Of a stretch of DNA of 35,728 bases, positions 7,792 through 30,958 are shown piece by piece (positions within the stretch are counted from its first letter, which is position 1; the number at the start of each line of letters is the position of its first letter). The notes under the pieces are model-generated. The model was not told the DNA's origin. It did no database searches and saw only the letters and a program-made list of their open reading frames with translations. This DNA comes from Nitrospinota bacterium (GTDB lineage: Bacteria > 2-12-FULL-45-22 > JACOWJ01). Location of the stretch: positions 1 to 35,728 of the forward strand of contig JACOWJ010000050.1 of assembly GCA_016176845.1 (NCBI GenBank). The letters are read 5' to 3'. The translations under genes and the position numbers were made by a program.

Positions 7792-7870
7792 CTGCTTATC
7801 CGGATATCCCTCTTTCTCTTCGGCTTTTCTATAAGGAAAGGCCTTTTCTGGGAGGTTTTCGGGTAGGCTC
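7792..7870 (+). repeat. Palindromic repeat family, copy A (79 bp)
   Basis: It begins CTGCTTATCCGGAT and ends GAGGTTTTCGGGTAGGCTC, so the two ends are imperfect inverted repeats. It shares the left flank TTTTAA and both ends with copies at 20158-20235 and 24927-25005. The right flank is TGA rather than TAA. It lies upstream of the promoter-like site at 7897. Confidence 0.75.
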
Positions 7871-9449: not shown

Positions 9450-9559
9450 AATAGACATTTACGATCAAGCTAAGTTTTAAGTTTTAGGTGTTAAGTTTTA
9501 GGTTTCTTGCTTAACACTTAAAACCTGAAACTTAAAACTTTCCCGTAAATCCTGTCTAT
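9450..9559 (-). repeat. AT-rich TTAAGTTTTAGG hairpin element, copy 1
   Basis: Inverted ends ATAGACATTTACG (9451-9463) and CGTAAATCCTGTCTAT (9544-9559) enclose a long AT-rich inverted repeat built from TTAAGTTTTAGG-type units. Read on the minus strand, it matches the elements at 20099, 25903 and 30803 over GACAGGATTTACGGGAAAG and the following stem. It overlaps the 3' end of the RND transporter gene and provides its stop codon. Confidence 0.8.
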
Positions 9560-11977: not shown

Positions 11978-12076
11978 TTGGATAGAAATTTTCTTTTTTA
12001 GGGGCTAGGGGCTAGGGGCTAGGGATTAGCAAAAGCTCTTCTTTCTTACTATCCCCTAGCCCCTAATCCCTAATTC
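11978..12076. repeat. Edge motif plus TAGGGGCTAG hairpin
   Basis: A variant edge motif (GATAGAAATTTTCTTTTTTA at 11981-12000) is followed by three tandem GGGGCTA units and GGGATTAG. About 20 bases later comes the complementary CCCCTAGCCCCTAATCCCTAATT. The right arm supplies the stop codon of the minus-strand DUF475 gene. The hairpin separates this gene from the RND transporter gene downstream on the same strand. Confidence 0.75.
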
Positions 12077-13095: not shown

Positions 13096-13151
13096 ACTGA
13101 AGGAGGGAAGACCTTTGGAGAAAAAGTTGCTGCGCGGCTTTCGGATAGGCC
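13096..13151 (+). repeat. Possible partial copy of the 78-bp palindrome family
   Basis: The right end reads CTTTCGGATAGGCCC followed by TAA, matching the right end of the family (TTTTCGGATAGGCTC then TAA at 20221-20238). The left half is not recognisable. It lies between the AT-rich DUF475 gene and ahbB and touches the ahbB stop codon. Confidence 0.4.
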
Positions 13152-13613
13152 CTAAAAATAGCTCATGCTTGTCTTCTTGAGCTCGCGCAGGCTGAAGAGC
13201 AAGCGATAGCGCGTGATCCCCGTTCGCTGAGAGATCATCTCGGCCACCCGCTCGCAGGCCTTGGGATCTTTCCCATGGATCATGGTGTAAAGATTATAGG
13301 ACCAATCGGGAAAGGTGGGCCGTTCGTAACAATGGGTGACCTCCGGGAAAGAGGCCATGATCGGACCCACCCGCTCGATCTCCTGCGGAGGCACTTCCCA
13401 GACTCCCATCGCGTTGGCCGTAAAACCTGCCTTCTGATGGCGCAACACTGCCCCGACCCGGCGGAGACATCCCCTTTCCTGGAGGGAGCCCAGCCTCTCC
13501 AGGAGCTCTTCGGGAGAGAGGCTCAACTGAGCCGCCAGGGAGGCATAAGGGGTCTCATTTAAGGGAATGTCTTGCTGTAACAGGGCGATGATGGCCCGAT
13601 CCAGATCGTCCAA
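13152..13613 (-). CDS. ahbB: Siroheme decarboxylase subunit AhbB
   Basis: A 153-residue Lrp/AsnC-like fold protein. It has a winged-helix N-terminus (DLDRAIIALLQQDIPLNETPY) and a RAM-like C-terminal part carrying VTHCYERPTFPDWSYNLYTM. That motif is typical of AhbB and the NirD/L/G/H proteins rather than of true Lrp regulators. With AhbA it decarboxylates siroheme to 12,18-didecarboxysiroheme, the first step of the alternative heme pathway of sulfate reducers and archaea. It lies 14 bases behind ahbA on the same strand, so the two are probably co-transcribed. AhbC and AhbD are not in this window. Confidence 0.88.
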   Translation of the reverse strand: MDDLDRAIIALLQQDIPLNETPYASLAAQLSLSPEELLERLGSLQERGCLRRVGAVLRHQKAGFTANAMGVWEVPPQEIERVGPIMASFPEVTHCYERPTFPDWSYNLYTMIHGKDPKACERVAEMISQRTGITRYRLLFSLRELKKTSMSYF

Positions 13614-20098: not shown

Positions 20099-20258
20099 GT
20101 ATAGGAATTTCCTTTTTGGACAGGATTTACGGGAAAGTTTTAAGTTTCAGGTTTTAACTGTCTATCCGGAAACCCCTCTTGCTCCTTTGCCTTTTCGGTC
20201 CGGGGAGGCCTTCTGGGAGGTTTTCGGATAGGCTCTAAGTGTTAAGCAAGAAACCTAA
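20099..20258 (+). repeat. AT-rich hairpin element, copy 2, split by a nested insertion
   Basis: The left part (edge motif GTATAGGAATTTCCTTTTT at 20099-20117, then GACAGGATTTACGGGAAAG and the AT-rich arm to 20157) and the right part (TAAGTGTTAAGCAAGAAACC from 20236) match the uninterrupted copies at 25903 and 30803. A 78-bp palindrome is inserted between them. The right arm of the AT-rich hairpin is truncated at about 20258. Confidence 0.85.
20158..20235 (+). mobile_element. Palindromic repeat family, copy B (78 bp), nested with TAA target duplication
   Basis: The ends are CTGTCTATCCGGAAACC and, inverted, GAGCCTATCCGAAAACC. TAA lies on both sides (20155-20157 and 20236-20238). Removing the element and one TAA rebuilds CAGGTTTTAAGTGTTAAGC, the exact sequence of the host repeat copies at 25903 and 30803. 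This demonstrates mobility of the palindrome. No gene lies inside. Confidence 0.85.
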
Positions 20259-20269
20259 GAACCTCAAAA

Positions 20270-24136: not shown

Positions 24137-24262
24137 GGTATAGGAATTTCCTTTTTGAGATTGCTTCGCTCCGCTCGCAATGACAAACGTGGCCTTCCAT
24201 GTCATTGCGAGGAGCGGTAGCGACGAAGCAATCTAAGTACATCGTATAGGAATTTCGATTTT
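24137..24262 (+). repeat. GAGATTGCTTCG hairpin flanked by two edge motifs
   Basis: Copies of the edge motif GTATAGGAATTTC lie at 24139-24151 and 24244-24256. Between them, 24157-24234 is an inverted repeat with arms GAGATTGCTTCG...CGCAATGACA and TGTCATTGCG...CGAAGCAATCT. The whole resembles a cassette with direct repeats at both ends. It sits in the 351-bp gap between nth and the rubrerythrin gene. Confidence 0.8.
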
Positions 24263-24422: not shown

Positions 24423-24926
24423 ATGAAAAAGATGACCGAAGAGAACTTGAAGAGCGCGTTTGCCGGGGAAAGTCAGGCCCATATGCGATATTTGATCTTC
24501 GCCGATAAGGCCGAGCAGGAGAAGAAAAATAACGTGGCCAGGCTCTTCAGGTCCATCGCTCATGCCGAAGAGATTCATGCCACCAATCACTTTAGGACGA
24601 TGGAGGGGATCCATCCCACCGCGGAAAACCTCGAGGCCGCCATCGGGGGAGAGACCTTTGAAGTAGAGGAGATGTACCCCGCTTACAAGTCTGTGGCAGA
24701 TCTTCAGGAGGAGAAAGGTGCTCAGAGGAGCATCACCTGGGCCTTCGAGACGGAGAAGGTGCACCAGGAGCTGTATCGCAGGGCTAAAGAGGCCATAGCC
24801 CTGGGAGAAGATCTGCAGATTGGGGATATTTACATCTGTGGGGCCTGTGGGTTTACCCTGGAGGGGCAGCTGCCGGATAAGTGTCCGCTGTGCGGTGCGT
24901 CCTCATCCCGATTTTCCAAGTTTTAA
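24423..24926 (+). CDS. rbr: Rubrerythrin
   Basis: A 167-residue protein with an N-terminal ferritin-like di-iron domain (Glu16 in FAGESQAHMRY; AHAEEIHATNH with the Glu-x-x-His ligands; a second pair in FETEKVHQELYRRA) and a C-terminal rubredoxin-like domain with two C-x2-C motifs (ICGACG and KCPLCG). It reduces hydrogen peroxide in the cytoplasm of anaerobes, with electrons from rubredoxin or similar carriers. The ATG at 24423 follows AGGAGAA. A palindromic repeat abuts the stop codon. Confidence 0.95.
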   Translation: MKKMTEENLKSAFAGESQAHMRYLIFADKAEQEKKNNVARLFRSIAHAEEIHATNHFRTMEGIHPTAENLEAAIGGETFEVEEMYPAYKSVADLQEEKGAQRSITWAFETEKVHQELYRRAKEAIALGEDLQIGDIYICGACGFTLEGQLPDKCPLCGASSSRFSKF

Positions 24927-25005
24927 CTGCCCATTCGGAAACTTCTCCTCATTTTCAGCTGCTTCCGGACGGGAGAAACCTTCCGGGAGGGTTTCGGATG
25001 GGCTT
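24927..25005 (+). repeat. Palindromic repeat family, copy C (79 bp), at the rubrerythrin stop codon
   Basis: It begins CTGCCCATTCGGAAAC directly after the TAA stop (24924-24926) and ends GGGTTTCGGATGGGCTT. The ends match those of copies A and B in inverted orientation. The left flank TTTTAA is the same as in those copies. The stem could act as an RNA 3'-end structure for rbr. The following 150 bases to the TusA-like gene hold no convincing gene. Confidence 0.75.
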
Positions 25006-25902: not shown

Positions 25903-26036
25903 ATTATATAGAATTTCCTTTTTAGACAGGATTTACGGGAAAGTTTTAAGTTTCAGGTTTTAAGTGTTAAGCAAGGAACCTAAAACCTAACACCTAAAAC
26001 TTAAAACTTAGCTTGAAGGTATAGGAATTTCCTTTT
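25903..26036 (+). repeat. AT-rich hairpin element, copy 3, with edge motifs at both ends
   Basis: TATATAGAATTTCCTTTTT (25906-25924) opens and GGTATAGGAATTTCCTTTT (26018-26036) closes the block. Between them are GACAGGATTTACGGGAAAG and the AT-rich stem (AAGTTTTAAGTTTCAGG and its approximate complement). This is the most complete copy here and suggests the element is bounded by direct repeats of the edge motif. It lies directly before nuoB. Confidence 0.85.
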
Positions 26037-30748: not shown

Positions 30749-30958
30749 CGGGTTAGGGATTAGGAGGGGAGGGATTCCTGGCCCCTAACTCCTAGCTTGA
30801 TGATATAGGAATTTCCTTTTTAGACAGGATTTACGGGAAAGTTTTAAGTTTCAGGTTTTAAGTGTTAAGCAAGAAACCTAAAACTTAACACCTAAAACGT
30901 TAGCCAAAATTCTTCTTCACTAGCCCCTAATCCCTAATCCCTAATCCCTAACCCCTAA
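30749..30958. repeat. Nested repeat block: TAGGGATTAG hairpin interrupted by AT-rich element copy 4
   Basis: GGGTTAGGGATTAGGAGGGG starts the block and CTAGCCCCTAATCCCTAATC with further CCCTAAT units (30920-30958) ends it. In between, the edge motif (ATATAGGAATTTCCTTTTT at 30804-30822) introduces GACAGGATTTACGGGAAAG and the AT-rich hairpin to about 30896. This looks like one repeat family inserted inside another. It fills the 227-bp gap between nuoG and the acyl-CoA dehydrogenase gene. Confidence 0.8.

Follow-up and report, generated by a model that had tools for sequence, protein, structure and literature searches.

The window analysed here, a stretch of 35,728 nucleotides from a contig of a Nitrospinota bacterium, contains at 20158–20235 (plus strand) a 78-bp palindromic element that has no gene of its own and lies inside another, AT-rich repeat. 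What kind of element this is, and which machinery could have placed it there, are the questions raised by the locus. Our analysis makes it highly probable (roughly 0.9) that the element is an IS5-type MITE moved in trans by an IS5-family transposase.

A palindromic element nested in an AT-rich repeat

The limits of this copy (copy B) are defined by BLAST copies and by empty sites. Its left terminal inverted repeat, CTGTCTATCCGGAAACC, is located at 20158–20174 (plus strand) and pairs with the right end at 20219–20235 (minus strand), which reads inward as GAGCCTATCCGAAAACC; IS5-family elements elsewhere terminate in these 17 bases. The empty sites also identify the two copies of the target duplication TAA, at 20155–20157 and 20236–20238 (plus strand). 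The split host repeat extends approximately from 20105 to 20262 (plus strand), and three uninterrupted copies of it within the window are empty sites for copy B. Joining of the two flanks over one TAA gives a 43-mer that is found exactly (43 of 43 junction bases) at 30837, in the host repeat at 30809–30898 (plus strand), and at minus-strand 9500, in the host repeat at 9481–9558 (minus strand). At 25911–26000 (plus strand), in the copy at 25926, a junction of 20 bases (25954) matches exactly and one base nearby differs. The preliminary description had proposed an exact nesting between two TAA, with excision rebuilding the sequences at 30803 and 25903. The element and its exact nesting are real; the first site is rebuilt exactly and the second with one nearby base off, and the site at 9500 comes in addition to these two.

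The copies at 7792 and 24927, for which common ends with copy B had been claimed, are real copies as well, but older. Both are diverged and 79 bp long: one at 7792–7870 (plus strand) with TAA and TGA as flanks, the other at 24927–25005 (plus strand) with TAA and CAA, where the left TAA ends the ORF 24423–24926. A partial copy with only the right end is found at 13136–13152 (minus strand).

The genome itself (G000) is a MAG of 1.53 Mb in 61 contigs, 68% complete. BLAST identifies 43 MITE pieces in it at E ≤ 10 (best 4e-35), and 23 full-length copies with both ends anchored, plus fragments, are distributed over many contigs. These 23 diverge from their consensus by 4–36%, and the length of 14 is divisible by three. 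Collecting the copies and reading their flanks had been suggested as a check, and TAA dominates: in element orientation it is the left flank of 19 and the right flank of 14 of the 23, where about 0.9% would be expected of a random 3-mer given the same base composition (binomial p 2e-35 left and 3e-23 right, for copies that are not fully independent, three of them forming a tandem array). TAA is present on both sides of 13 copies and TTA on both sides of none. With few exceptions C or T precedes, and G usually follows, which gives a target of about YTAAR. Shuffling of the flank pairs yields p 0.16; nearly all flanks are TAA, which makes this shuffle uninformative on duplication, and thus the claim of a duplication rests on the empty sites.

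Prokaryotic MITEs are defined as short, palindromic, non-coding elements with the ends of an autonomous element and a target duplication (PMC3733652, PMC3119063). The present element is short, has terminal inverted repeats, contains no transposase gene, occurs in dispersed copies and shows a duplication with an empty site. Two further arrangements of its copies are observed. Three tandem copies on contig C56 (G000:C56:20656–20892; L012, L018, L019) have a period of 81 bp and private variants in common, which points to their origin by local duplication; one open frame spans all three, and this ORF has no family match. In L008 (G000:C4:25714–25779) the right end is replaced by the AT-rich repeat sequence GGTTTTAAGTTTTAAG, as if the MITE and the AT-rich repeat had recombined or one had invaded the other.

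Ends and candidate IS5-family partners

Pairing between the two ends of the MITE, GAGCCTATCCGAAAACC and CNGTCTATCCGGAAACC, covers about 15 positions in 19 copies and is preserved by nearly all of the copies. The first bases of these ends are GAG and CNG, respectively; the CNG... of the left end does not follow the IS5 consensus, which counts against an IS5 origin. A whole-element search of plasmids gave short matches only, one of which led to a plasmid of Kovacikia minuta. Here, GAGCCTATCCGAAAACC is one end of an 886-bp element, the other end of which has 1 mismatch in the 15 bases compared. Its two flanks, TTA and TAA, differ; the duplication is thus not intact, which counts against the IS5 reading. 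An 898-bp element of an Oculatellaceae MAG also ends in GAGCCTATCCGAAAACC and has TTA on both sides. Both elements encode IS4/5-type transposase domains, split over several ORFs: DUF4096 is found in both, DDE_Tnp_1 and DDE_Tnp_1_2 also in the Kovacikia element. Furthermore, an inverted-end search that assumed no end sequence delimited eleven other IS5-type elements of 861–932 bp in plasmids, viral contigs and one genome. Ends of the form GA(A/G)C(C/T)TATCC are present in nine of the eleven, and so is, again in nine, a perfect 3-bp TNA duplication (TAA, TTA or TCA). Within the IS5 family, the IS1031 group is described as inserting at sites of three bases (PMC2516522). The IS1031/IS427-like IS5 elements, such as those annotated ISAzo38 and ISPrst3, resemble the MITE in the GA(A/G)CCTATCC... 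end and the TNA duplication, while the MITE differs from them in its 78 bp, its lack of a transposase gene and a left end with CNG instead of GAG. The element is of an ordinary kind, an IS5-type MITE, and new as a family; a text search of papers for its end sequence gave no match.

A transposase gene with matching ends had also been proposed as a check. Such elements do exist in other bacteria; in the MAG itself (68% complete), no IS5 transposase with these ends is found, nor any DUF4096 or DDE_Tnp_1_2 domain. The sole trace of DDE_Tnp_1 there is a fragmented ORF on G000:C17 (L049), which is under the cut-off and apparently IS1634-like, and no MITE-like ends are recognised at it. Multicopy ISs often fail to assemble, and an autonomous partner in the same genome is usual but not required for MITEs. 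Since no matching transposase is found in the MAG, we infer mobilisation in trans, by a transposase that was once present in the lineage and is now lost or missing from the incomplete assembly. The defining MITE features are common to Nezha of cyanobacteria (compared by description only) and the HqIRS MITEs of Haloquadratum and others; unlike for these, the partner of the 78-bp element is found only in other organisms.

The exact 17-mer end is widespread. With one genome per species it occurs in at least 117 stretches. Several phyla contain it in short paired elements of 58–260 bp; of the 75 among the matches listed, 19 are flanked by TTA and 13 by TAA on both sides. Three genomes contain more than 200 MITE ends each, against 0–1 for the reversed pattern. 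Chance is excluded for this abundance, which can be explained if IS5-type transposases recognise one shared end. In these genomes (G061, G062 and G060, with L103, L106 and L176) the numbers of DUF4096 transposases are 0, 0 and 1, and the single one has other ends. The cores of the short elements vary from lineage to lineage and are frequently palindromic in their own right. L087, L106, L116, L154 and others have the same 17-base end around different palindromic cores, some of which are common repeats, for example GTCATTGCGAG...GAAGCAATC; this suggests that IS5-type ends captured interchangeable palindromes. A Desulfobacteraceae MAG is rich in MITEs with the 17-base end, and its IS5 copy was rejected as a partner by its different ends. 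A scan of viral contigs for TNA plus the end found none, and a scan for the 15-base core gave mostly chance matches and one 130-bp MITE-like pair. Through this end, an anonymous repeat is connected with a transposase family that can be named and with a multi-phylum group of MITEs.

Mechanism, orientation of the target and alternatives

An IS5-family DDE transposase (DUF4096 with DDE_Tnp_1/DDE_Tnp_1_2) would recognise GAGCCTATCCGAAAACC and CNGTCTATCCGGAAACC in trans and insert the element at YTAAR, duplicating TAA. The duplicated TAA would re-create a stop codon, by which copies could persist at gene ends, and the open length of 27 codons would let them persist in frame within long genes, where three are located. 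One further observation counts against the IS5 reading: a symmetric TNA target does not predict matched duplications of 13 TAA and 0 TTA in element orientation. For two other MITE families, oriented by their cores and counted by hand, the matched duplications among the matches listed are 5 TAA and 6 TTA, and the contrast is significant (Fisher p 0.003). A third family has one end with a milder bias of 18:9 among the matches listed. Because one end begins with CNG and the other with GAG, an end-specific contact with the target is possible. We know of no description of end-asymmetric target choice for IS5 elements.

This orientation is just what a single-strand element of the IS200/IS605 or REP/RAYT type would produce. 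Such an element would insert 3′ of TAA in fixed orientation and make no duplication, its own right end being TAA; TAA would appear on both sides in one orientation only, as seen, and a single insertion would give the same sequence as a TAA duplication. The fixed orientation beside a short target is matched by the MITE. However, it is bounded by terminal inverted repeats identical to IS5-family ends rather than by subterminal hairpins, and in other genomes the MITEs that share its end have TTA as well as TAA duplications. The only trace of a Y1 transposase in the MAG is a match of 31 positions with E 0.01, below the cut-off, so that no above-threshold Y1 partner is found. We regard this origin as very improbable.

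It is very improbable, too, that the repeat now serves, and is maintained, as a 3′ hairpin, a terminator or mRNA stabiliser whose orientation follows the upstream gene. In one orientation, several copies do lie directly against the stop codon of the ORF upstream of them, and the pairing of the ends in nearly all copies would fit a hairpin. Against this, covariation is little (double changes in 2 of 18 pairs, term −0.83), and of four sequences tested for single-strand folding, three fold no better than their shuffles. The copies also vary widely in how far they have diverged or been truncated, and reading frames run through some of them. Single MITE copies may nevertheless have regulatory effects. 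There is, finally, the element at 1056–1246, a single-copy element with inverted ends of about 67 bp (GGAGGCTCGCCAAAATAA...), which the preliminary description, placing it at 1064, had linked to the MITE by a common TAA target and one transposition machinery. Its flanks do allow TAA to be read on either side. The flanking direct repeat can also be read as (T)CCTAAGG, of 7–8 bp, which makes the common target weak, and its long ends are unrelated to those of the MITE. With the element being single-copy in the genome, a shared machinery is hardly credible.

Copies in and beside genes

For the IS5-type MITE, element and duplication together are 81 bp, or 27 codons, and two of the six reading frames contain no stop. 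Frames +1 and −0 can be read through the element and both duplications in nearly all 78-bp copies. Three of the 23 full-length copies continue the reading frame of a long gene, namely an HdrA-like, a radical-SAM and a vWA-like gene. For the copy in the HdrA-like protein gene (L017, contig C7), solved HdrA chains align to the query up to residues 237–239 and resume at residues 265–268, and the aligned chain residues are adjacent across this gap (229–231 and 230–233). Thus, the element-derived residues are extra in this protein. The duplication gave two TTA leucine codons, one of which now reads CTG and still encodes leucine. In L002 (C49) the element follows TIGR03960, which reaches residue 491, and precedes TIGR03936, which starts at residue 528. 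Relatives have variable linkers at this position, which makes the site a tolerant linker; the alignment is no proof of an exact empty site. In L003 (C56) the copy is in frame in an ORF of 1037 residues. Two other genomes conserve the C-terminal half of this ORF, which by its motif resembles a vWA domain; the element-bearing part is left unaligned by them.

At the gene ends, the left TAA is the stop codon of the upstream ORF in at least five copies. The upstream gene encodes DnaX for L006 and NAD kinase for L020; for L024, L013 and the window copy at 24927 the upstream ORFs have 273, 205 and 180 open codons. To account for the gene-compatible copies it suffices that harmful insertions are selected against, and gene targeting need not be assumed.

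Palindromic repeats in frame in unrelated protein genes are known from the Rickettsia palindromic elements (RPEs), and a similar process in other prokaryotes has been called conceivable (review PMC10969869). The 78-bp MITE is alike in its in-frame insertion into unrelated protein genes; the likeness is one of behaviour, and membership is not claimed. RPEs are about 150 bp long with nearly half of their copies in genes, against 3 of 23 in long genes for the MITE. Unlike RPEs, the MITE has ends that match a known transposase family, and its insertion leaves a TAA duplication. Judged from sequence, the in-frame copies would give a defined example, from outside Rickettsia, of a palindromic element that enters proteins, one with a transposase family open to testing. 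A broader reading is put forward tentatively: a gene-tolerant IS5-type MITE that brings 27 codons with each insertion, has two open frames, re-creates stops through a one-orientation TAA and adds 26–27 residues to working enzymes might combine RPE-like, protein-modifying behaviour with a nameable transposase family and an end-asymmetric target. The in-frame insertions in conserved genes and the one-orientation TAA target are the features worth following.

Other repeats are also observed in the window. Intergenic minisatellites with a 7-base unit are found at 9471, 14093 and 25977 and at 12039, 22330, 27926 and 30910, of the types AAGTTTT/AGGTTTT and CCCTAAT/CCCTAGC, respectively. The short motif ATAGGAATTTC(C) recurs beside other repeats at 2033, 20101, 24140, 24246, 26021 and 30805, and at 24140–24260 it brackets the palindrome ATTGCTTCG...GCAATGACA.
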